Source of the DNA: an uncultured Bacteroidota bacterium
Lineage (GTDB): Bacteria; Bacteroidota; Bacteroidia; Bacteroidales; CG2-30-32-10
Assembly (NCBI GenBank): GCA_903889915.1
Contig: CAISZK010000281.1
Span: 1-34,392 of the forward strand
DNA: 34,392 nt
Reading direction: 5' to 3'
Part shown: positions 2,305 to 33,915 of the stretch, one piece after another
Numbering within the stretch: position 1 is the first letter of the stretch
How the letters are laid out: each line of letters begins with the position of its first letter
Notes under the pieces: model-generated
Database searches by the model: none
What the model was told of the DNA's origin: nothing
Seen by the model: the letters and a program-made list of their open reading frames with translations, nothing else
Position numbers and translations under genes: made by a program

Positions 2305-3054
2305 ATGAAAAAACTCACTCTTTCCGTCTCCCTGATGATCTTTGCAACCTGCCTGTTTGCCCAGGAGTTAAAACAACCTGCATACTTCATTGACAAGCTG
2401 CCTGTATATCCAACCACTCCCAAAGTTTATCAGCAAAAGCTGGATTCGCTTGCACCGGTTGATCTGGAGCTAAAGGCTGCTATAGATGCTTATAAAAATG
2501 CGCAAAAAACAGCCCAATCGAAAATGGATAAGGCTGCAATTGCAAAGTATTATCAAAGTATGACTCCTGCACAAATAATGGCAATGACGCAGGCAGCAAC
2601 CGCATTGATTGATACAACTAAGGAAGGTGTGGCAAAAACAATGCACAAGCTGAATTACGAATTCATTACATACCAGGATCAATATGAGAAAGAATTTGAA
2701 ACGAACATTTACCCACTTGACACCGTCATTAATTCCATGATTGGATCGGGGACTCCTGCACAAATTGCGAAGATGCATCAACTGATGACAGAAAGGAAAA
2801 CTGAATATCAAAAGATCATGGAAAAATACCTGCTTGGAGATAAAGCTTTATTCCCAAACATATTGGGCATTTTTAGAGATTATCTGACTTCAACATTAAT
2901 TGCAAAATGCGATCAAATAGAAAAGGATCAAACCCAAATGTTCAACCTGCCATACACACCTCATACCGCTGCTTTGGCAGAAATTCAGGAATATCTTGGC
3001 AAATTTGAACAGGTGATCAAAAATTTCAAAGATTATAAAGACTGGGGGATGTAA
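2305..3054 (+). CDS. Secreted helical protein of unknown family, copy 1
   Basis: I do not recognise a named family. The start at 2305 gives a classical signal peptide (MKKLTLSVSLMIFATCLFAQ) of about 20 residues; an in-frame ATG at 2281 would add eight residues that spoil it. The mature part (~230 residues) is Gln/Lys/Ala-rich and predicted largely helical, with no Cys pairs or catalytic motif. It is clearly paralogous to the minus-strand gene at 9677-10432. Both have CLFAQ(E/D)LK at the signal cleavage site, YPxxPKxYQQK near residue 40, and KYLLG, EKDQ, FNL.Y.PH, then NFKDY near the end. The two copies face each other across 6.6 kb. Its stop overlaps the convergent gene ending at 3033 by 22 bp. 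Location is probably periplasmic or cell surface; function is unknown. Confidence 0.8.
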   Translation: MKKLTLSVSLMIFATCLFAQELKQPAYFIDKLPVYPTTPKVYQQKLDSLAPVDLELKAAIDAYKNAQKTAQSKMDKAAIAKYYQSMTPAQIMAMTQAATALIDTTKEGVAKTMHKLNYEFITYQDQYEKEFETNIYPLDTVINSMIGSGTPAQIAKMHQLMTERKTEYQKIMEKYLLGDKALFPNILGIFRDYLTSTLIAKCDQIEKDQTQMFNLPYTPHTAALAEIQEYLGKFEQVIKNFKDYKDWGM

Positions 3055-3269
3055 CAACTCACTTTTCGCTCAATTTTCTTTAAAATCTTTAATGTGGTTT
3101 CAATAGGCAATGTTTCTTCATTTTCTCTTTCATTCATTAAGGCAAGAAGAGCGCTGTCCTCCTTATCATCCTGTGAAAGTAAACGTGATTTATATCCCAT
3201 TTTTTTCACAAGATCAAGAAAAAATCTCAATTCTTTTTTTGAATCAATATTTACTACTACACTTTCCAT
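3033..3269 (-). CDS. Small antitoxin-like protein, no toxin partner visible
   Basis: A 78-residue protein beginning MESVVVNIDSKKELRFFLDL, a strand-helix opening typical of short Bacteroidota antitoxin-like/DUF2683-type proteins. It has an acidic middle (SQDDKEDSALLALMNER) and a C-terminal Lys-rich helix. In such modules the toxin gene usually follows directly. Here the sequence beyond 3033 is the coding end of the convergent gene at 2305, and no RelE-like frame follows on the minus strand. The last eight residues (SCYIPQSL) are encoded inside the opposite gene's 3' end, so the original C-terminus and partner may have been lost. The family call is by resemblance only. Confidence 0.5.
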   Translation of the reverse strand: MESVVVNIDSKKELRFFLDLVKKMGYKSRLLSQDDKEDSALLALMNERENEETLPIETTLKILKKIERKVSCYIPQSL

Positions 3270-3312
3270 GATTCTTTGATATTAATTTAGATTACAAAAT
3301 TACAAAAAAAAC

Positions 3313-3736
3313 AGAACACTGATTTTTTAAGATTCCGTACATACGAAATGATCTGGACTGGTTATTGATCTTAATAGATCTTAACCATCAGTCCCGCACG
3401 TGCGCATACACGTCAAGCAAAGAATAGATAATTCGGGGCAATAGTCACGGAGTGACGGCAGTTTGGTAGTATAATTGACAAGCTATAATGTAAGTCACGG
3501 AGTGACGATAGTATAAAAAATGAAAATATTTTTTGAAGTTATATTGTTATAATAATGCCGTACCTACGGCACTTTTATTTCCTTTATTATGTTCATACAC
3601 CTATAATGTCGTCACTCCGTGACTTTTGTTTTCCTCTGCATATTATTACTACCAACATGCCGTCACTCCGTGACTATTTTGCGGAATTTCCTACCGATAG
3701 CTTGACGCCAATGCGCACGTGCGGGATCAGTGTTCT
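3313..3736. repeat. Large symmetric nested inverted-repeat structure (REP/MITE-like)
   Basis: Outer arms at 3388-3418 and 3700-3729 share the CCCGCACGTGCGCAT core. Inside them, the 13-bp palindrome GTCACGGAGTGAC occurs four times: 3444-3456 and 3494-3506 in one orientation, 3611-3623 and 3662-3674 in the other, spaced 50 and 51 bp. At the centre (3556-3571) is a perfect 7+7 palindrome, TGCCGTACCTACGGCA. Everything is symmetric about position ~3560. A further word, AGAACACTGAT, is at 3313-3323 and inverted at 3726-3736, but the left side carries an extra ~65 bp. No gene is supported in 3270-3755. It lies between two minus-strand genes and begins 20 bp past the stop of the DUF5686 gene. Confidence 0.85.
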
Positions 3737-19689: not shown

Positions 19690-22600
19690 TTACTTTCCAA
19701 TCTTCACTCTTATCCCTTCGGAATGTGCGCTGAATTCAGGAGCATACATACACTCTATGTTGGTAATGCCATTTGAAAAATTACCATCATGCGTAACGAA
19801 CAGAGGATATTCGAAAACATAAGTACCCTTTGGTAAAACAGAGAAGAAGAAGTTTGTTGATGCATCGCGGGTGCTTTCATAATACCCCAATCCATCCTGG
19901 TATTTGTATTGCGAGATCACATTCACTGGTTCAAAACCCGAAGCCCGCATGTCTTTCATGTGAACATATTCCATCGTTCTGTCAACACTGAGTTCGATAC
20001 GTACTGTTATCTTATCGCCAATTTTTAGTTTGGTGGTGGGAGTGATAAGATCCAGTACAGGTCCTGTGTCAGACGTCTTGTTCAGGAACAATTTTTTACT
20101 AAGTGTCAATGGTGTCACTGCCGGTGTTATCTTGTCGAGTTGTTCGAAATATTGCCAGTAAAGTGCACCCCATGAAACACCATTGTCAGACTTGGTGACA
20201 GTGACATTTCCCATTTCAGGAGTGATCTCTTTTCCACTCCATGATGTTTTGAAATAACCTGTTCCTGCTTCAACTTTTACATTGTCCATTTTTTTAGGAT
20301 CCACCACTTCATCACCAACTTTTATCTGAACAAGCTGATCAGAGGCAAGCCAGTTGGCACCGCGAAGGAGCAAGGCATAACATGCTTCAGCAGTAGCCTT
20401 GGTGGTTTTCCAGTCCTGTGTTTGTTTTTGTTTCAGCAACCATACCTTTAAGTTTTCAACGGATACACTGTCGTTGGCTACTTCATCAAAAGCTTCAATC
20501 AGCAACGACTGTGTTTCAATAGGAGCCTGATACCAGTAATATCCTGATGACATATCCTTCCAGTACATGCCCATTTCATCACTTGAAATAGAATTTTCTT
20601 TCAGTGATTTCATGATGTCTGTAGCAGTCGTTTTATTGCCTGTACGGTTCAAAGCAAGTGCGATCATCCCTTGCAGGTAGCGGCTGTTATCGAGCCAGTA
20701 TTTTTTAGCCTGTCCAAGGAAATAATTATATGCGTCTTCATTCTTACTGGTTATTTTAATGTCATCAAGAAAATAGGTACGTGAATAGAGATATTGAATT
20801 TCCAGTTCGCTGAGATGGTTTTTGGCCATTTCTTCCTTCGTATAATTTTGCAATATCCAGTCATAATCTTCCCTCATCCTGTCGTCAAGATATTTCACAC
20901 CACTCTGCACCATACGCCAGCAATTAGTGTTTTCTTTGATATCCGTAACGCCTAATTTATTCAGATGTCCCAGTCCGGTGACAATGTATTGGGTAATATA
21001 CCTGTCATCTTCATCACCGCCAAACCAGGGAAAGCCGCCATTCGACAACTGCATTTTTTCAAGTTTTTTCAAGGCTTTATCAAGCTCGTAACTCATTTTA
21101 TTCAGGTTGAAAAGAAGGGCTACTCTTTGCTTTCTTTCACTTTCGTCTTTGGCCTGCAAAACCCATGGAGTTTCTTCGAGCAACAATGATTTGAGTTCTT
21201 CATTTTTTTCGAGTTTTGAAAGCAAAGCATCCGAGGGAAGTATTTTCCAGCTATCGAACACTGCTTTAATTTTGGGGTATGAGTTTGCAATATGCGTTGC
21301 AATGCTGTTTGCATAATAACGATCGAAAACCTGCTCTGCACATTCATAAGGATACTCCATCATGTAAGGAAGCGCTTGAATGGCGTACCATGCAGGGTTG
21401 GAAGTAAACTCAAGTGTCAGTTTATAATTCTTCAGCGTGGTTGAGGATTTCGAATTGAGAAGTTTTGTAAAAGAAAAATTCCTGGTTTCTTTTCCGCGTA
21501 CCGGCAAAGGAAGAGTTTCGGTTACCAGCATGCGGTTATTCAAAACAGGTATCACCATTTCTTCACCATCTGAATAGCTTTCTGCAGTTGCAACAGTTTT
21601 GTATTTAATAGCGCTGATACCTTCAGGAATGATTATTTTCCATGTCAGTGAAGCGCTTTGTCCTTTTGCAGATGTAAAGGTTTTTATAGTGTCGGAGTTA
21701 CTGCATAAAGCATCAATGGATTTCATGGTTGTGGCATCAAAGAGGAACAATTGTGCAGTGCCTTTCATTTCTTTGGTAGTGAGATTTGAAACTTTTGCTG
21801 AGAAAGAAAGTGTATCGCCTTCCCTGAAAAATCTGGGTGCATTTGGAACTATCATCAACTGTTTCTGTGTGACGAGTTCTTTTTCAATCTGACCGATCTT
21901 AAGGTCTTTTGTGGTGGCAAGTCCCATCATTTTCCATTTTGTCAATGCTTCCGGAATGGTGAATGAAATGATCACTTCTCCATTTTCATCAGTTTGCAAT
22001 TGCGGGAAAAAGAAAGCTGTTTCATCAAAATTTGCCCTTGCCTGAACACCTGCTAATGATATTGTAGGTCCGCTACCTCCGGGTAAAAGCTCGCCTGCTT
22101 TGTTGCCTGTAGCTTCATGAGCTGCAACCCCACCAATCCCGGCAGTAACAGTTGAAACAGGTATATTCGAACTCTCATCCACTTTACTGTTTTCTTCGTT
22201 TTTAGCAACATCTTTATATTTTTCTTTATCTTCACCGGAGATGGCCCTGTCTGAAACAAGACCAAATGTACTTTGCCCGACAGCCTTTGTCTCCATTTCG
22301 GCCTGTTCCTGATAATCGCCATCATAGCCGTAATAATTATTATACCTGTAATAGCCGCCATATTCAAATCCGAACCAGTTCAGCTTGTCGTAATACCTGT
22401 ACTTCGGATATGAATATAAGTTGTCATAAAAGGAATAGGATGTTGAAGTGTTTGTGTTGAAACAGTAATAAGAATCCCAATAAAGTGAAGAATAATATGA
22501 ATCGTAGATGTTGAAATACCAGTAATTCGGCTTATAGGCATCCAGCGATGCATCGTACATTGTGGCTAACATTTCAGCAGCCACTTTATCGCCATTCTTA

Positions 22601-25600
22601 CCTTTAATTTTTATTTTCCACTGCTCTTTCTGACCGGGCAATAACTTATCCCTGAAAGTTTCGAATTTTATGTCTAATTCTTTGTTTGTATATGGTACTG
22701 TTATCACCTGCTCATTGTTGAAAAACCTGTTGTGTTTTACAGTGATCATGTGAATAGAGAGCCCGCCGCGATAATCTTCTTTGACCGGAACATAGATCAG
22801 TTTTTGTTCATTGTTCATTTTCAGCCATTTTTTCTTCAGTATTTTCCCATCATATTCCAGTTCGTAAAGGAAGGTAGTATTTGAGTCTCTTGTGCCAATA
22901 ATGAATGAAGCGCTGTCGCCCGGTTCGCACTTATCTTTTACCACTGAAAAGTAGTTGATGGAATTGTCAGGAACCTGTTTTTCCTTTTTTCCGTACACGG
23001 TGAAGTAACTGTAAAAGTCAACATCCTCGCCATATTTATCCTTGCTTTTGGCTTCCACCACATACGACCCGATCTTCCAGTCTTCAAGATCTTTTATTTT
23101 GACAACAGAATCCCCTGGTGTTTCAAAATTCATCTCAAACACCTTTGTATCCTTTTCCCACTTATACATATTGTTTTCGTCATCGTAAAGATCGAAGGGG
23201 AATGCCTGGGAATATTCTTCCTTTGTCATGAGGTATTTGTCAGGTTTATCCCACAACCTCGTGCGGAATACTTTATCAGGTTGTTTTAATTTGTAGATCT
23301 TTATTGTTCCCGTTGCCGGTTGTTTTTCACCATTCAGGTTCATGGTGGAAAGGTCAAATTCTGCTTTGTCCGATTTCTCCACCTCATAAGGAATGTTGAG
23401 TGAAATGTAAAGTGCTTTGTAACCAACCTCAACGTACTTCACTGCAGAACGTGTCTCTCCGGTCATATCTGTGACATCGGCATAGACAGTGTAAGTAAAT
23501 GTCGGGGTGTATTTTTTTGAAACGGCAGCATCCGGAATAGCTTTGAATTTTATGGTGAATTCTCCTTTTTCGTTGGTTGTTGTATCGCCATGTGCAATCT
23601 CCATCTGTGGTGAACTCGGATAATATCCCCTCCACCAATACCACCAGTAGGGGAAAGATGCTGTGCGCACAACCCTGTATTTTACATCTGCGTTATCAAT
23701 CACATTGCCGGCGTAAGCAATGGCCGATCCTTTAACTGTGATCATCTCATTAAGTTTGTAAGACCCCTTTACCGAATCAATGGAAGCTGAAAATTTCGGA
23801 CGCTTATATTCTTCAACAGAGAAATACTGAGTTCCGCTGCCGTTCGTGATATACACCTGGCCTGTGATGCCTGCAGGTGCAGTAAATGTTCCGTTAAATG
23901 TACCATATTCATTTGAAGTAAGGTCAAGAGATGAAACTTTCTGATAATTGACATCATAAAAAGTAACCGTTGTTTTTGCATTGGTGGCAATGGTATATTT
24001 TTTTCCGGTCTTGTCAGTGTTCAACAATATTCCTTTGAAGTAAATTGTTTGTCCCGGACGGTAAATAGCCCTGTCGGTGAAAAAGAAAGTCTTCAGATAA
24101 TTGGAATAGTCCGAATCATAAGGTTTATACTGGTAAAAATCATTTTCTGTGATGAGCTGGTCATTGCCAAGATCAAATTCCATTGAAAAATAATTGTAGT
24201 CAATTGCAATGGGTACTTCAAAATAACCATTCTCATCCGTCATGAATTTTTTCCATTTTGATGGTTCATACTCTCTCGTAAATGCATTATAGCTGCTCTT
24301 GATTGCCTGCGCTGATACGTTTTTCAAAGGCTGACCGGTTTCCCTGTTCAGGATATAAAAATCCATTGCGCCTTTGTCTTTTTGCCTGTTGACATAACTG
24401 ATGTTGGTCACCCAAAAATGGGAGTAGGCAATGATATCATCCTGCACTGAAAAATCCTTGTTGTTTGAAGCCAATATCAGATAATATCCAAGCGGGAGTG
24501 CATCAATTTTCATCTCAGCAGCATGTTGCTGGTAGTCGCTGTCGTTGGGAAATGTTATAGTCCATTCTTTCACAACATTCTTTTTCAGGTATTGTTTGAT
24601 CAGATCCTGGCCGTAATATTTCTGGCTGAGCTTTCTGTTTTCGTCATAAGTCATCTTGATAATACGGAATGAAATGCCGGAACCATTTTTGTATTTTACC
24701 AGTGTTTTCAATGATTTGTTGGGGGCATTGCCTTCTTCAAACTGCATGGAAATACTGGTACTAAGGATTGACACTTTCAGATTTTTACAACTCATCGCGC
24801 CATAAGATGTGGGATAAGCCTTGACGGCTTCGTCACATTTTTCAACAGCTTTTTTCAACAGCCATTTGTAGTCTTCCGATTTTGACGGATTATACAAACT
24901 TCCTTTGGTGTAATAAGCCATTGCCAGTGCATAGGTGATATCTGTTGAAGCTGCAAATTTTGAATATTTAGGTTCAAGGTCAAGCAGCGCCTGCAAATAC
25001 AAACTGTCCTTTGTTTCCAATACGGAATTTGTTTTCACAAATTTCAGACGCTTCAGATCGGCATCTATCAGCGCTGAGGGATCAGCATCCTGTGCGTGAA
25101 AACTCAGCAGGTCCTGGAAGATCTTTGTTGCATAGAATTTCAGCGACAATGAATCTTTCGACGTGATGTTAAGCTTTGCAAACTCAGCTGCCGGTTTTAA
25201 ATAATCTTCATTGTTGATCTCAAATTTATAAACAGGTTTGGTTAGCGAGGCTTCGTCGTTCATAAAAAAATCAACGGCCCTGTGGGCAAGAAAATCATAG
25301 AGTGTGGGACGCAAATAACGGGCGGCTGTGTCTTCAACAATGATGTCGTTGTAAAGATCCAGTTTTGTCTTCTTCAGATTTTCCGCGTCATTCAGCGAAA
25401 GAACATAATTGGAAATTACTTCTTTGATCAGTTTTTTCAGGTCCCATGTCTTCATGTCATCGTCCTTATAGTTGACCGTTTCCGTGCGTTTATACCAGGT
25501 GTAGCGGTTGATGACATAATAGCGCCAGTACATTTCGGCAAGCACCGAATGCAGCACGGGTTTTATAGGAAATGCAGCATCTGCAAGCTCGGTCTTCAGC

Positions 25601-25926
25601 GATGCAATACTTTTTTCGTACGAGTCCTCGCTGTAGTCATTTTCGAGCTTCATTTTATACATGATGGCCTTTACAAACTGTGGGGCATTATTGTCGGCTT
25701 TAGCTTTTTTGTAAATGATCAGAACTTCTTCAAGCGCCGATTTAGTGAGGCCTTTGGCAATAAGCGAATCAATTTTCGCCCACGATTTTTCATATCCGCC
25801 TTTGACATCAAGCAGCGCCATTTTCGCATTTTCTTTTTCTTTCGCGATGTGGCGGCTTACAAAATAATTTCCTGCAAAAGTGAGGATGGTTAATACACTG
25901 ATAAGTAAAACAAGCTTTGCTTTCAT
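19690..25926 (-). CDS. Alpha-2-macroglobulin family protein with thioester motif
   Basis: 2078 residues. The N-terminal hydrophobic segment (~4-24) has no lipobox Cys, so it is a signal peptide or anchor. A helical N-terminal region runs to ~400. Macroglobulin domains follow, with the DRAIYRPGQTIYFKG signature at ~615-630. The A2M core domain (DETAFFFPQLQTDENGE, TKWKMM) lies at ~1295-1390, and the thioester motif C-A-E-Q at C1529-Q1532. An alpha/alpha-toroid with GGFPWFGGDEDD follows, and a receptor-binding-like C-terminus. Bacterial members trap proteases in the periplasm through the Cys-Gln thioester, and that motif is intact here. Residues ~1123-1208 are strikingly Tyr/Asn/Trp-rich. No adjacent pbpC, the usual partner in Proteobacteria, is present. 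It is probably monocistronic. Confidence 0.93.
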   Translation of the reverse strand: MKAKLVLLISVLTILTFAGNYFVSRHIAKEKENAKMALLDVKGGYEKSWAKIDSLIAKGLTKSALEEVLIIYKKAKADNNAPQFVKAIMYKMKLENDYSEDSYEKSIASLKTELADAAFPIKPVLHSVLAEMYWRYYVINRYTWYKRTETVNYKDDDMKTWDLKKLIKEVISNYVLSLNDAENLKKTKLDLYNDIIVEDTAARYLRPTLYDFLAHRAVDFFMNDEASLTKPVYKFEINNEDYLKPAAEFAKLNITSKDSLSLKFYATKIFQDLLSFHAQDADPSALIDADLKRLKFVKTNSVLETKDSLYLQALLDLEPKYSKFAASTDITYALAMAYYTKGSLYNPSKSEDYKWLLKKAVEKCDEAVKAYPTSYGAMSCKNLKVSILSTSISMQFEEGNAPNKSLKTLVKYKNGSGISFRIIKMTYDENRKLSQKYYGQDLIKQYLKKNVVKEWTITFPNDSDYQQHAAEMKIDALPLGYYLILASNNKDFSVQDDIIAYSHFWVTNISYVNRQKDKGAMDFYILNRETGQPLKNVSAQAIKSSYNAFTREYEPSKWKKFMTDENGYFEVPIAIDYNYFSMEFDLGNDQLITENDFYQYKPYDSDYSNYLKTFFFTDRAIYRPGQTIYFKGILLNTDKTGKKYTIATNAKTTVTFYDVNYQKVSSLDLTSNEYGTFNGTFTAPAGITGQVYITNGSGTQYFSVEEYKRPKFSASIDSVKGSYKLNEMITVKGSAIAYAGNVIDNADVKYRVVRTASFPYWWYWWRGYYPSSPQMEIAHGDTTTNEKGEFTIKFKAIPDAAVSKKYTPTFTYTVYADVTDMTGETRSAVKYVEVGYKALYISLNIPYEVEKSDKAEFDLSTMNLNGEKQPATGTIKIYKLKQPDKVFRTRLWDKPDKYLMTKEEYSQAFPFDLYDDENNMYKWEKDTKVFEMNFETPGDSVVKIKDLEDWKIGSYVVEAKSKDKYGEDVDFYSYFTVYGKKEKQVPDNSINYFSVVKDKCEPGDSASFIIGTRDSNTTFLYELEYDGKILKKKWLKMNNEQKLIYVPVKEDYRGGLSIHMITVKHNRFFNNEQVITVPYTNKELDIKFETFRDKLLPGQKEQWKIKIKGKNGDKVAAEMLATMYDASLDAYKPNYWYFNIYDSYYSSLYWDSYYCFNTNTSTSYSFYDNLYSYPKYRYYDKLNWFGFEYGGYYRYNNYYGYDGDYQEQAEMETKAVGQSTFGLVSDRAISGEDKEKYKDVAKNEENSKVDESSNIPVSTVTAGIGGVAAHEATGNKAGELLPGGSGPTISLAGVQARANFDETAFFFPQLQTDENGEVIISFTIPEALTKWKMMGLATTKDLKIGQIEKELVTQKQLMIVPNAPRFFREGDTLSFSAKVSNLTTKEMKGTAQLFLFDATTMKSIDALCSNSDTIKTFTSAKGQSASLTWKIIIPEGISAIKYKTVATAESYSDGEEMVIPVLNNRMLVTETLPLPVRGKETRNFSFTKLLNSKSSTTLKNYKLTLEFTSNPAWYAIQALPYMMEYPYECAEQVFDRYYANSIATHIANSYPKIKAVFDSWKILPSDALLSKLEKNEELKSLLLEETPWVLQAKDESERKQRVALLFNLNKMSYELDKALKKLEKMQLSNGGFPWFGGDEDDRYITQYIVTGLGHLNKLGVTDIKENTNCWRMVQSGVKYLDDRMREDYDWILQNYTKEEMAKNHLSELEIQYLYSRTYFLDDIKITSKNEDAYNYFLGQAKKYWLDNSRYLQGMIALALNRTGNKTTATDIMKSLKENSISSDEMGMYWKDMSSGYYWYQAPIETQSLLIEAFDEVANDSVSVENLKVWLLKQKQTQDWKTTKATAEACYALLLRGANWLASDQLVQIKVGDEVVDPKKMDNVKVEAGTGYFKTSWSGKEITPEMGNVTVTKSDNGVSWGALYWQYFEQLDKITPAVTPLTLSKKLFLNKTSDTGPVLDLITPTTKLKIGDKITVRIELSVDRTMEYVHMKDMRASGFEPVNVISQYKYQDGLGYYESTRDASTNFFFSVLPKGTYVFEYPLFVTHDGNFSNGITNIECMYAPEFSAHSEGIRVKIGK

Positions 25927-29407: not shown

Positions 29408-30097
29408 TCAAGGCTTCTTCTCTTCCTTGTTCACCAACCCCTTTGTCCGGTGCTTTAGCACCTTTGCTTCAATATAGAAAATAATTTCTTCAGCAATGTT
29501 CTTGGTCTGGTCGCCTACGCGCTCAAGTCTTCTGATTATTGAAAGCATGCTGAGTCCGTGTTCAATTTCCTTAGGATTCATTTTGATATAATCAGCAATT
29601 ACAGAATTGGCTTTTCTGTTGATAGTATCAAGCTTTTCATCCCTTCCGAAAATTGCACGGGCAGTCTGGTTATTTTCTGTTTCAAAAGAATCGAGTGTGT
29701 CGCAAAGCATGGCAATACATTCTTCATACATCTGGATGACGCCAGTTTTATCGAACAGATCCTTTTGAAAAGGCTGATCAAATTCTTTAATGATCAATGC
29801 TATTCCCTGGGCATAATCACCAATGCGCTCAAGGTTGTAATTGATCTTGAGAACAGCCAAAACAAAGCGCAGGTCAATGGCAACAGGGTTATAGAGTGCC
29901 AGAATGTTCTCGCAATCCCTGTCAATTTTCAGTTCATAAACATTTACGCGCTTCTCGTTGATGTCAACATCGGTGGCGACATCTTTGTCGAACAGTGATA
30001 ATGCACTTTTTGATTTATTCATCTGGCGGATGACAAGCATCCACATTTCGTTTAGCTCTGCTCTCAGCAGTTTTAGTTCCGTATCTAAGTGAGTCAT
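29408..30097 (-). CDS. phoU: Phosphate signalling/transport regulator PhoU
   Basis: 229 residues forming the two three-helix bundles of PhoU. The first repeat contains NVYELKIDRDCE and LERIGDYAQGI. The second contains DTINRKANSV and LERVGDQTKNIAEEI. The paired ERxGDxxxxI motifs are the metal-binding helices of the family. PhoU sits on PstB/PstSCAB and keeps the phosphate-sensing kinase off when phosphate is ample. It is the last gene of the pst locus, 106 bp after pstB; that gap carries repeat words. No phoB/phoR is in the window. All expected motifs are present. Confidence 0.94.
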   Translation of the reverse strand: MTHLDTELKLLRAELNEMWMLVIRQMNKSKSALSLFDKDVATDVDINEKRVNVYELKIDRDCENILALYNPVAIDLRFVLAVLKINYNLERIGDYAQGIALIIKEFDQPFQKDLFDKTGVIQMYEECIAMLCDTLDSFETENNQTARAIFGRDEKLDTINRKANSVIADYIKMNPKEIEHGLSMLSIIRRLERVGDQTKNIAEEIIFYIEAKVLKHRTKGLVNKEEKKP

Positions 30098-30123
30098 TTT
30101 TTTTGTTTAAAAAGTTTGAAATA

Positions 30124-30200
30124 TTTGTTGTTTGTTGTTCGGTTCAAAGTTTCTTCAAGTACTTTAGAAACTTTAGCACACTTCGAACTTTAGACACTTT
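30124..30200. repeat. Short-period word array (CTTTAG), locus 3
   Basis: TTGTTGTTTGTTGTTCGG, TTCAAAG, then ACTTTAGAA, ACTTTAGCAC, ACTTCGAA and CTTTAGAC steps, in the same order as 6222-6296. It lies directly 3' of the pstB stop codon at 30204, between pstB and phoU. Confidence 0.7.
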
Positions 30201-30203
30201 TTT

Positions 30204-30956
30204 TCAACCGAATCTTCCGGTGATATAATTCTGTGTTCTTTCGTTTTTAGGGTTTGTGAAAATTTCTTTTGTAGTTCCCAATTCAATGAGTTCGCCGATA
30301 TAGAAAAATGCGGTGTTATCACTTATCCTTGCAGCTTGTTGAATATTATGCGTAACAATTACTATTGTATAGTTTTTCTTCAGATCGAACATCAACTCTT
30401 CAATTTTAGCTGAAGATATGGGATCAAGCGCTGATGTTGGCTCGTCCATTAATAACACTGAGGGCTCAATAACCAATGCACGTGCAATGCACAATCGTTG
30501 CTGCTGACCGCCCGAGAGGTCCATTGCAGATTTTTTCAAAAAATCCTTTACTTCATCCCATAAGGCGGCCTGGTGTATGGCTTTTTCAACTTGCTCATGA
30601 ATAAACTTTTTATCTCTGACTCCGTTTACTCTTAAACCATAAGCAACATTTTCAAATATTGACATTGGAAAAGGATTTGGTTTTTGAAATACCATTCCAA
30701 CTTTTTTGCGAAGATCATCAACATGAATATCCCTGGCATAAGCATTATCACCTTCAATCAGTACCTGCCCTGAAACCTTACAACCTTCAATAAGATCGTT
30801 CATACGGTTGAGCGCTCTGAGATAGGTAGATTTTCCACAACCTGATGGACCCATCAATGCAGTAATTGATAACTTGTTCATGCTCATTGTAACATTTTTT
30901 AAAGCATGAACCTCTTTATAGTGTACGTTCAGATCAATAGTCTCAATGACTTTCAT
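30204..30956 (-). CDS. pstB: Phosphate ABC transporter ATP-binding protein PstB
   Basis: About 250 residues. Walker [10 protein letters not shown] (36-44), the Q-loop in [22 protein letters not shown] signature [15 protein letters not shown], Walker [13 protein letters not shown] and the switch His in [13 protein letters not shown] are all intact. The [11 protein letters not shown] and NDLIEG features are specific for PstB. It powers phosphate import through PstC/PstA. I chose the ATG at 30956, one base after the pstA stop, because it gives the standard N-terminus [13 protein letters not shown]. An in-frame ATG at 30983 would add nine residues and overlap pstA by 26 bp. It lies in the operon between pstA and phoU. 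Confidence 0.96.
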
Positions 30957-30957
30957 T

Positions 30958-31836
30958 TTATTTAACTTTATATTTTCTTCCAAAATAATTCCTCAACACA
31001 TTTGCAAGCAAATTCATTATCAGAACAATCATTATCAAAACAAGAGCTGTTCCATATGCAATTGGCCTTGATTTTTCAACATCTATCCCGCTTGTTGCAA
31101 GCACATATAAATGATAGGGCAGCGCCATGACCTGATCAAAAATTCCCGAAGGAAGCTTTGGCAAGAAATAAGCAGCAACAGTAAAAAGAATAGGGGCTGT
31201 TTCACCAGAAACTCTTCCAATTGAAAGGATCAACCCGGTAAGTATGTTTGGAAAAGCGATCGGAAAAACAACCCTGCTTGTTGTTTGCCATTTGGTGGCG
31301 CCAAGGGCAAGGCTTGCACGCCTGAATGAATTGTCAACTGCTGCAAGCGATTCCTCTGTTGTTCTGATTACAACCGGTAATGCCAATAGTCCCAATGTAA
31401 GCGAACCGGCTAAAATAGAATCTCCGAATCCAAGTTTGTTTACGAACAACGACATTCCGAATAATCCAAAAACAATTGAAGGAACTCCTGCCAGATTGTT
31501 TGTCATGATCCTGATAAAAACTTTTAATGGTTTCCAGGCAGCATATTCATGATTATAAATTCCTGCAAGAACACCTATAGGAAATGCAAAAACCATGCTC
31601 CCGGCAATGAGCCATAATGTTCCGATAATAGCCGGATAAATACCACCGCTGGTCATTCCTTCAGTTGGACTTTGAGTAATAAAATCCCAGCTTAAAACTT
31701 TAAATCCTTTAATAAAAATAAAAGCCAGTATGATAAATAGAACCGCAACTACAGATAAGCTTAGCACTCGAAACACCCAAAACATAATGCTTTGGTTAAG
31801 CCTTTTCCTTTTCCCTGATTTGGTTTGTTTGATCAT
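30958..31836 (-). CDS. pstA: Phosphate ABC transporter permease PstA
   Basis: 292 residues, normal length, with six membrane segments. The first is at ~19-50. [34 protein letters not shown] starts the permease core. The ABC-coupling EAA-like loop is [32 protein letters not shown], and the PstA-type [18 protein letters not shown] follows. It forms the inner-membrane channel with PstC and is driven by PstB. It begins 7 bp after the pstC stop and ends one base before the preferred pstB start, so the three are tightly coupled. No oddities apart from a basic N-terminal tail ([10 protein letters not shown]). Confidence 0.95.
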
Positions 31837-31843
31837 AATTCAA

Positions 31844-33061
31844 TTAGTTTTTAGCAACCTTACGTTTTGATGAAACCCATTCTACAAGCAGATTGGTAAT
31901 AAGAGTAATTACGAATAAAATACATCCCAGTGCAAATAATGCTTTATAATGCAAACCACCCTGAGGTGCTTCTCCCAGTTCAGCAGCTATTGTAGCCGTT
32001 ATGGTTCGTATTGGCTGAAGGAATGAATGAGGCATAACAGCAGCATTACCGGTAACCATAAGAACAGCCATCGTTTCGCCAAAAACTCTTCCGACACCAA
32101 GAATCACAGCAGCAGTAAGTCCAAGAAGTGAATGAGGAATAACAACCCTTATTATTGTTTGGAGTTTGGTAGCTCCAAGTGCCAGGCTTGCCTCACGCAT
32201 AGCATTCGGAGTTGTCCGTAAGGCATCTTCCGAAATTGTAATAATGGTTGGTAGCACCATAATGGCAAGAACTATACTGCCTGCCAATGCAGTTTCGCCA
32301 ACAGGAAGGTTAAAAGTATGTTGAACCAGGGGAACAATAATCACCAGACCAAAGAAACCATAAACAACAGAAGGTATTCCTGCAAGAAGTTCGATAACCG
32401 GTTTCAGAATATTCCTGACCCTTTGATTGGCAACTTCCGACATATAAATTGCCGTTGCCAAGCCCAATGGCAATGCCAAAAGAATTGCGCCAATGCAAAC
32501 AAGCAAAGTACCCAATATCATTGGTAACACACCAAGCTGGGCAATGGGTTGGGCTGTAGGAAACCATTCTTTCCCACTGAGGAATCCGCCAAGGGTAACA
32601 TTGTCTATTTTAAGTTTTTTCCCACTAAAATCTTTTACAATATTTTTTGCTGGAATGTAAGCAATAATTCCTGTGTCCTTTGCAACAAGCTGGTTGATTC
32701 TCAAAGGCAAATTCTCAAGATTATCTCCCAGTTCAGCGTCTGTAAAATAAGCGCCGATATCATTTATTGTAAATACGGTTATTGCTCTGTCAAAACCGCC
32801 AACCTCTTTCCAGTTTACTATCTTTTTATCAAATATATCTTTGATCTGTCGTGAAGTGAGATCAACTGAATTATTGTATTTGCTAACAGCAAGGACAAAA
32901 TCTTTTTCAATTGGTTTATCACCAAAAAGACTGAACCCTTCCTTAAAAAGGAAAATGACAATCAGCAGTACTGCTAAACTAGTCACAGTACTGCTGATGG
33001 TAAGGGCACCTTCAATAATTTTTTCAATCAGCCTTCTGACAAGGCTACGTCGTCGTTTCAC
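31844..33061 (-). CDS. pstC: Phosphate ABC transporter permease PstC with periplasmic PstS-like insert
   Basis: 405 residues, about 100 more than a standard PstC. After a basic N-terminus and TM1 (~21-40), residues ~48-160 form a soluble insert. Then the normal core begins (LGVLPMILGTLLVCIGAILL...). The core has coupling loop [27 protein letters not shown] and GRVFGETMAVLMVTGNA. The insert reads SVDLTSRQIKDIFDKKIVNW, KEVGGFDRAITVF and TGIIAYIPAKN, and aligns with residues ~106-215 of the adjacent PstS (LTREQLEDIYTGKTTNWKDV, GGPDLQIVAY, GAIGYVGMAY). The Ser/Gly-rich phosphate-contact segment RESSSGTYDF is not kept (TINDIGAYF). The insert should face the periplasm. It is 23 bp after pstS and 7 bp before pstA. 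Confidence 0.94.
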   Translation of the reverse strand: MKRRRSLVRRLIEKIIEGALTISSTVTSLAVLLIVIFLFKEGFSLFGDKPIEKDFVLAVSKYNNSVDLTSRQIKDIFDKKIVNWKEVGGFDRAITVFTINDIGAYFTDAELGDNLENLPLRINQLVAKDTGIIAYIPAKNIVKDFSGKKLKIDNVTLGGFLSGKEWFPTAQPIAQLGVLPMILGTLLVCIGAILLALPLGLATAIYMSEVANQRVRNILKPVIELLAGIPSVVYGFFGLVIIVPLVQHTFNLPVGETALAGSIVLAIMVLPTIITISEDALRTTPNAMREASLALGATKLQTIIRVVIPHSLLGLTAAVILGVGRVFGETMAVLMVTGNAAVMPHSFLQPIRTITATIAAELGEAPQGGLHYKALFALGCILFVITLITNLLVEWVSSKRKVAKN

Positions 33062-33084
33062 TTGACTGGCATTTTATTCATGAA

Positions 33085-33915
33085 TTATTTAGTTGCTAAA
33101 GGAACATAACCAACTTCTTTCACAATTTTTTGTCCATCAGCTCCGAGAACCCATGTCATTGCAGGTTTAAGCGTAGCTGCCAGAGTTTTCAAATAGTAGA
33201 AATATAATGGTCTGATAATGGGATAAGTTTTGTTTATTGCATTTGCCATTGTGGGAGCAATGTAAGTAACTCCTTTATCATAAGAAACTGATAAGTCCGA
33301 AACTGTTGAATTTACATAAGCCATGCCAACATATCCGATTGCCCCTTTTGTCTGTCCGACCGATTGCACAATAGAAGCAGTTGCAGCCATCATCAGGCAG
33401 GTTGAAGAAAAATTCTTTCCTTTCAAAACGTGTTCTTTGAAAAAATCATAAGTTCCCGAACTTGATTCACGTGAATAAGCTACAATTTGCAGGTCAGGAC
33501 CACCTACATCTTTCCAGTTGGTTGTTTTACCTGTATAAATATCTTCTAATTGTTCGCGGGTAAGTTTCTTTACTGTGTTTTCAGGATTTACAATAACAGA
33601 AAGTGCATCATAAGCAACGATGGTTTCAACGTAAGCTTTCCCTGCTTCCTGCAATTTAAGTTTTTCATCCATTTTGATTTGTCTTGAAGCTGTTGCAATG
33701 TCGGTTGATCCATCAATCAATGCAGCAATACCTACGCCACTTCCGCCACCTGTAACAGAAATGCTGGTAGTGGGATTTAGTTTCATGTAAGCTTCAGCCC
33801 ATTTCTGAACCAGAGGTAATAATGTATCACTACCTTTTATTTTGATTGAGCCGGCCAGGAATGTGAACGACATTGTTACAACGGCGATCACGAGGATTAA
33901 TAATTTCTTTTTCAT
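33085..33915 (-). CDS. pstS: Phosphate-binding periplasmic protein PstS
   Basis: 276 residues with a signal peptide (~1-22, no lipobox). Phosphate-binding motifs are present: IKGSDTLLPLVQKW (25-38), the GGGSGVGIAALIDGSTDIATASR stretch at 57-79, and SRESSSGTYDFF (148-159) whose Arg-Ser-Gly-Thr contacts phosphate. TREQLEDIYTGKTTNWKDVG lies at ~119-138. It captures phosphate in the periplasm and hands it to PstCA. It follows the porin gene after 35 bp and precedes pstC by 23 bp, so all are probably one transcript. A Pho-box or promoter would be upstream of the porin, outside the window. Confidence 0.95.
   Translation of the reverse strand: MKKKLLILVIAVVTMSFTFLAGSIKIKGSDTLLPLVQKWAEAYMKLNPTTSISVTGGGSGVGIAALIDGSTDIATASRQIKMDEKLKLQEAGKAYVETIVAYDALSVIVNPENTVKKLTREQLEDIYTGKTTNWKDVGGPDLQIVAYSRESSSGTYDFFKEHVLKGKNFSSTCLMMAATASIVQSVGQTKGAIGYVGMAYVNSTVSDLSVSYDKGVTYIAPTMANAINKTYPIIRPLYFYYLKTLAATLKPAMTWVLGADGQKIVKEVGYVPLATK

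Follow-up and report, generated by a model that had tools for sequence, protein, structure and literature searches.

Within the window (the whole 34,392-nucleotide stretch that was analysed, contig CAISZK010000281.1 of an uncultured Bacteroidota bacterium), five copies of one hairpin unit form a symmetric intergenic structure, two on the plus strand facing three on the minus strand at a spacing of about 51 bp (Table 1). Adjoining it is a small minus-strand ORF (3046–3270, MESVVVNIDSKKELRFFLDLVKKMGY...) that has no Pfam match and by eye resembles short antitoxin-like proteins. Elsewhere on the minus strand lie a gene for a bacterial alpha-2-macroglobulin of 2078 aa (19690–25926; MG2, A2M and bMG10 domains) and, recognised from their translations, phoU, pstB, pstA, pstC and pstS of a phosphate transport operon (29408–33915). 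Rfam searches returned only tRNA in the window, and no match in one array locus of the repeat family described below.

The initial annotation had described four facing copies of the 13-mer GTCACGGAGTGAC, spaced 50 and 51 bp apart, and a central 7+7 palindrome (TGCCGTA-CC-TACGGCA, 3556–3571); all of these lie where it placed them. It had drawn outer arms at 3388–3418/3700–3729. The arms hold up, with better boundaries that give 27 bp each and leave TCAG, a direct repeat at 3388–3391 and 3727–3730, outside the inverted repeat. Its single shared centre near 3560 applies to the pairs and arms (about 3559) and not to the central palindrome, which is a minus-strand unit in its own right, the third (GTGCCGTAGGTACGGCA), and for that reason lies about 5 nt off. 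The reading as four isolated palindromes was dropped, as the host genome showed tandem 51-bp units. We confirmed that the structure is real and far beyond chance. An 80-nt inverted repeat (3392–3471/3647–3726, 80% complementary) spans its outer part, and single-strand folding of the 335-bp stretch gave z = −16 for DNA and −18 for RNA, with 0 of 100 shuffles folding equally well.

Table 1. Features of the composite in the window, with the evidence for each.
Feature	Position	Strand	Evidence
Whole non-autonomous composite (very likely), 335 bp, units inward-facing (2 on +, 3 on −)	3392–3726	.	Arrays, composite alignment, R1 matches
Left outer inverted repeat TCCCGCACGTGCGCATacaCGTCAAGC	3392–3418	+	Family consensus TCCCGAAATTTCGCATTGGCGTCAAGC; kept in other host-genome (G000) composites
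Unit A1: hairpin GTCACGGAGTGAC 3444–3456, 8-nt spacer 3457–3464, GGTAG 3465–3469	3444–3469	+	R1 match 3439–3472, E 8e-12
Unit B1: second hairpin GTCACGGAGTGAC 3494–3506, array-terminal, without GGTAG	3494–3519	+	R1 match 3489–3519, E 2e-4
Central palindrome, third minus-strand unit GTGCCGTAGGTACGGCA	3556–3572	−	R1 match 3544–3577, E 0.004; kept across composite family (alignment)
Unit B2: hairpin GTCACGGAGTGAC 3611–3623	3595–3623	−	R1 match 3595–3628, E 2e-5
Unit A2: hairpin 3662–3674, 8-nt spacer 3654–3661, GGTAG (CTACC on +, 3649–3653)	3649–3674	−	R1 match 3646–3679, E 2e-12
Right outer inverted repeat GCTTGACGCCAATGCGCACGTGCGGGA	3700–3726	−	Sequence inspection and composite alignment

In the host assembly (5.55 Mb, 476 contigs), the exact 13-mer occurs 41 times and its reversed control not at all; a unique locus, which the initial annotation had said would speak against its reading, is thus not what we found. 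The 13-mer heads a longer unit, AAA-hairpin-GRYATnTT-GGTAG-AA followed by about 20 variable nucleotides, in which a 5-bp hairpin with a 3-nt loop precedes GGTAG by exactly 8 nt. Units stand head-to-tail in arrays of 1–9 with a period of 49–52 bp, and GGTAG is often missing from the unit that ends an array. The stem differs by family. Host stems vary yet stay complementary (GTCAC/GTGAC, GTCCT/AGGAC and GTCCC/GGGAC), and complementarity is kept in relatives (GCCTC/GAGGC, GTACC/GGTAC and others). The covariance model R1 gave 99 matches in the host genome at E ≤ 0.01 and 140 at E ≤ 1, with all five units of the window among its hits (Table 1).

Sixteen other loci in the same genome share the outer arms, unit order and centre of the window copy, forming with it a composite family of 17 aligned loci, several of them partial or interrupted by contig ends. 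Separately, host loci L192–L200 hold a second composite family, in which ACCTCGTAGAGGT-gaaatctt-TGTAA hairpins are paired with GTCACTTCGTGAC about 86 bp apart. Element loci are intergenic, and rough ORF calls placed 29 classified loci in convergent (8), tandem (19) or divergent (2) contexts. As many contigs of the host assembly end inside or near arrays (L008, L019, L023, L163–L166, L171, L172 and L180), copies of the element and any cognate transposase locus have probably been under-counted.

The host genome contains six Y1_Tnp genes, one of which, on contig C339, is embedded between facing hairpin–GGTAG units with the stem GTCCC and the tail ATATCGGTAG. No Y1 gene flanked by GTCAC hairpins was found in the 476-contig host assembly, and no Y1 remnant within the element loci examined; the cognate enzyme of the GTCAC family may be missing from this assembly. 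The genes associated with units encode proteins of about 150 aa with an HUH motif and a Y---Q--HH motif (PF01797), that is, subclass 1.2 TnpAY1. These enzymes score above the cut-off of NCBIfam IS200 and below that of REP_Tyr_transpos, and match ISDra2 and IS608 TnpA in profile comparison. Subclass 1.2 has been listed as REP 'no' and as generally lacking IS200-type secondary structures (Quentin et al. 2018, PMC6006769). The genes found here agree with that description in Y motif, length and Bacteroidota distribution, and differ in that hairpin arrays surround nearly every gene examined and that dispersed copies occur in the sampled genomes.

In relatives, too, nearly all subclass 1.2 genes sit among hairpin arrays, and in two genomes, G001 and G055, facing units enclose the Y1 gene. 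In G055, both halves of this gene-carrying locus recur in gene-free composites, so that the window composite looks like such a locus minus its gene. The IS200-like transposase with palindrome-bearing flanks that the initial annotation had proposed to look for is thereby in hand at the level of anatomy: hairpin units built in the same way flank subclass 1.2 Y1 genes.

We quantified this arrangement at 80 subclass 1.2 loci, drawn from a scan of named genomes and fetched by similarity to A3, so that the sample leans towards close relatives of the C339 enzyme. Hairpin density in the 400-bp flanks was 6.7 per kb compared with 1.07 per kb further away, and 9.1 times that of shuffled sequence. At least three flanking hairpins were present at 74 of the 80 loci versus 3 of 80 in the background, and the spacing between them had its mode at 51. 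Where an inward GGTA[GA] occurred within 24 nt of a hairpin, it lay exactly 8 nt 3′ of it in 113 of 119 occurrences. Covariation of the stems is partly circular, since only perfect stems had been selected; this circularity does not affect the count that starts from GGTA[GA] with no hairpin selection, in which 119 of 239 inward sites had a perfect hairpin of 5 bp whose end lay 8 nt upstream (background, 4 of 469), with 15 different stems among the 119 positives. Unit A1 of the window has the same +8 geometry.

The GGTAG form is not universal, and other subclass 1.2 genes are accompanied by TATAG, TGTAG or other hairpin types. GGTA/GTTA-type motifs at +8 were few around order-level Y1 genes (10 of 100, in a count whose 'other' class included L065, with a degenerate Y-Q motif, and so was not a clean control), and this scarcity led to the TATAG and TGTAG variants. 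TATA[GA] and TGTA[GA] likewise peak at +8, and some form of the tail is present at 71 of the 80 loci. The type of tail follows the transposase tree, with 8 changes compared with a shuffled mean of 17.1 and minimum of 13 (0 of 500 shuffles as low). At L027, L064, L066 and L076, subclass 1.2 genes lie in arrays of longer GC-rich hairpins (for example, CCGCAGGCTGAAGCCTGCGG every 38 bp) with no GGTAG tail. Close subclass 1.2 genes also appear in records labelled Methylococcaceae, Planctomycetaceae, Verrucomicrobiia and Neomarinimicrobiota (L086, L111, L148, L153 and L160), reflecting either horizontal transfer or mis-binning.

Across 295 genomes of the phylum other than that of the host, units were present in 62 of the 74 genomes with a close subclass 1.2 gene versus 52 of the 221 without one (odds ratio 16.8, p = 2e-20, a statistic not corrected for phylogeny); the remaining 12 genomes with the gene gave no model match. 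Many unit matches in the absence of a subclass 1.2 gene at E ≤ 1e-20 came from genus g107 of family f72, where they may be orphan repeats, units of a different Y1 subclass or cross-hits of the model.

Facing composites were seen in the host (G000), G055, G229 and G265, and head-to-tail arrays occur as well. In two complete genomes of genus g65, which we read as Flavobacterium-like, composites are ordered hpA-8-GGTAG, hpB, gap, hpB′, CTACC-8-hpA′, the layout of the window copy. A search of 199 genomes of the genus with one g65 element, L223, showed the element downstream of one conserved gene in five genomes (G265, G429, G532, G504 and G533) and its absence from nine others that were read; exact element boundaries at the empty sites could not be aligned. 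One of the g65 genomes, G084, has an empty site that shares both flanks with occupied sites. The element stands before the terminator in two genomes and after it in two, which points to separate insertions. Thus, a lack of empty-site polymorphism, the other outcome named against the initial reading, does not apply to the family; the window locus itself was compared with other genera only, and four orthologues of its neighbouring DUF5686 gene, all from those genera, had no units downstream.

Taken as a whole, these data make it very likely that the window structure belongs among the non-autonomous mobile elements of REPIN/MITE type, with no gene inside and with inward units of the kind found around subclass 1.2 Y1 genes. 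From the repeat family, its unit anatomy, the same anatomy at subclass 1.2 genes, the co-occurrence, the coupling of tail to phylogeny and the presence/absence pattern, we infer that a transposase acts on it. Another account would be a MITE bounded by long terminal inverted repeats, in which an unrelated (DDE) transposase reads the outer arms (TCCCGAAATTTCGCATTGGCGTCAAGC) and the inner hairpins are passengers. The arms are indeed kept among many host-genome composites, and the window copy lies between direct TCAG repeats. However, the arms are missing from the arrays of 1–9 units and from other composites, composites of other genera share the hairpin layout and not the arms, and the same units flank Y1 genes; TCAG is confined to the window copy, and neither it nor any other target-site duplication is consistent across copies. 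We therefore regard a DDE-driven MITE as improbable. Marginally less probable still is a bidirectional terminator or mRNA-stabilising structure, selected between convergent genes and spread by gene conversion or duplication. It would fit the three hairpin-plus-T-run sites on the plus strand (0.5 expected) and the rarity of divergent loci in the rough ORF calls (2 of 29), but orthologous sites have an ordinary terminator without the element, which can lie on either side of it, presence is patchy and transposase genes are surrounded by units of the same anatomy.

The structure could also be a remnant or minimal IS200/IS605 element whose hairpins are its left and right ends, as in PATEs. A hairpin followed on its 3′ side by a conserved motif, as found here, resembles an IS200/IS605 right end. 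The associated enzymes are HUH-Y1 proteins that match ISDra2 and IS608 TnpA by profile, and a hairpin on single-stranded DNA is the expected type of substrate. By contrast, IS200/IS605 ends (subclass 1.1) comprise a single left and a single right hairpin that share a strand and come with guide tetranucleotides, whereas here inverted arrays place several inward units on each side, gene copy number is low and no left/right-end polarity is obvious. Typical IS200 ends are also reported to be generally missing in subclass 1.2 (PMC6006769), and we consider this origin unlikely. A CRISPR array, judged from the arrangement of dispersed arrays of 1–9 units in facing orientation, is unlikely as well.

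The non-autonomous element that we favour has much in common with the REP/BIME/REPIN sequences and TnpAREP (RAYT) enzymes of E. coli and Pseudomonas: many short intergenic hairpins, often in inverted pairs, a GTAG-like tag, and Y1 genes with such hairpins in their flanks, each gene having its own hairpin family. High copy number in intergenic loci and facing pairs, as expected of REP sequences, were both found, as were the conserved terminal inverted repeats and, for the same layout in genus g65, the empty sites expected of a MITE. In REP sequences, however, GTAG or GTGG lies 0–2 nt 5′ of the hairpin foot, where we found A/T-rich sequence, and the tag here, GGTA[GA], follows the hairpin on its 3′ side at a distance of exactly 8 nt; head-to-tail runs of units at about 51 bp occur too; and the flanking genes have Y---Q--HH rather than the Y---NP of class 2 TnpAREP. 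A classical REP is therefore ruled out. Of the original proposal, the REP-like or MITE-like composite with an IS200-type transposase survives, through its many copies, flanked genes and empty sites, and assignment to the GTAG-tagged class 2 TnpAREP/RAYT REPs does not.

CGTC-tagged REPs, reported in Bacteroidetes too, carry an unpaired CGTC 5′ of the stem, a 4–5-nt loop and a CCA tail (PMC3733652). They share with the present units small palindromes and a four-base tag, and the reverse strand here reads ...CCGTCACTCCGTGAC; membership is ruled out, as GTC is paired within the stem, the loop has 3 nt and there is no CCA tail. A 2025 REP survey gave high REP counts for Flavobacterium, with RAYT or transposase unmentioned. 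We think it probable that the units belong to a branch of transposase–repeat systems undescribed in the open-access literature searched, in which subclass 1.2 enzymes across Bacteroidota each keep their own 51-bp-periodic hairpin-N8-KRTA[GA] units, and in which these units give rise to gene-free composites, the window copy among them, that are then moved.

TnpAREP of E. coli, Stenotrophomonas and Marinomonas reads a hairpin together with a GTAG tag, located 5′ of the hairpin, as shown experimentally (PMC8266576). Similarly, the Y1 transposase may recognise the folded single-stranded unit, reading the stem as a structure and GGTA as a base-specific tag or a cleavage/guide site, probably while the element is single-stranded during replication. 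Cutting and rejoining of units in trans would then move or duplicate composites and extend arrays. Elements would settle mostly where the host tolerates them, between genes that are not divergent, and may have a secondary role as weak terminators.

The window element is one member of a non-coding, very probably mobile kind of hairpin repeat that is scattered through Bacteroidota genomes. Since units of this kind surround subclass 1.2 genes, which had been listed without repeats or typical ends, they offer a widespread transposase subclass a likely substrate and a testable rule: a hairpin, 8 nt and GGTAG, facing inward and repeated at about 51 bp. The same process is one possible origin for many short hairpin repeats in intergenic regions of Bacteroidota, and a second, independent HUH branch becomes available for the study of REP-like domestication.
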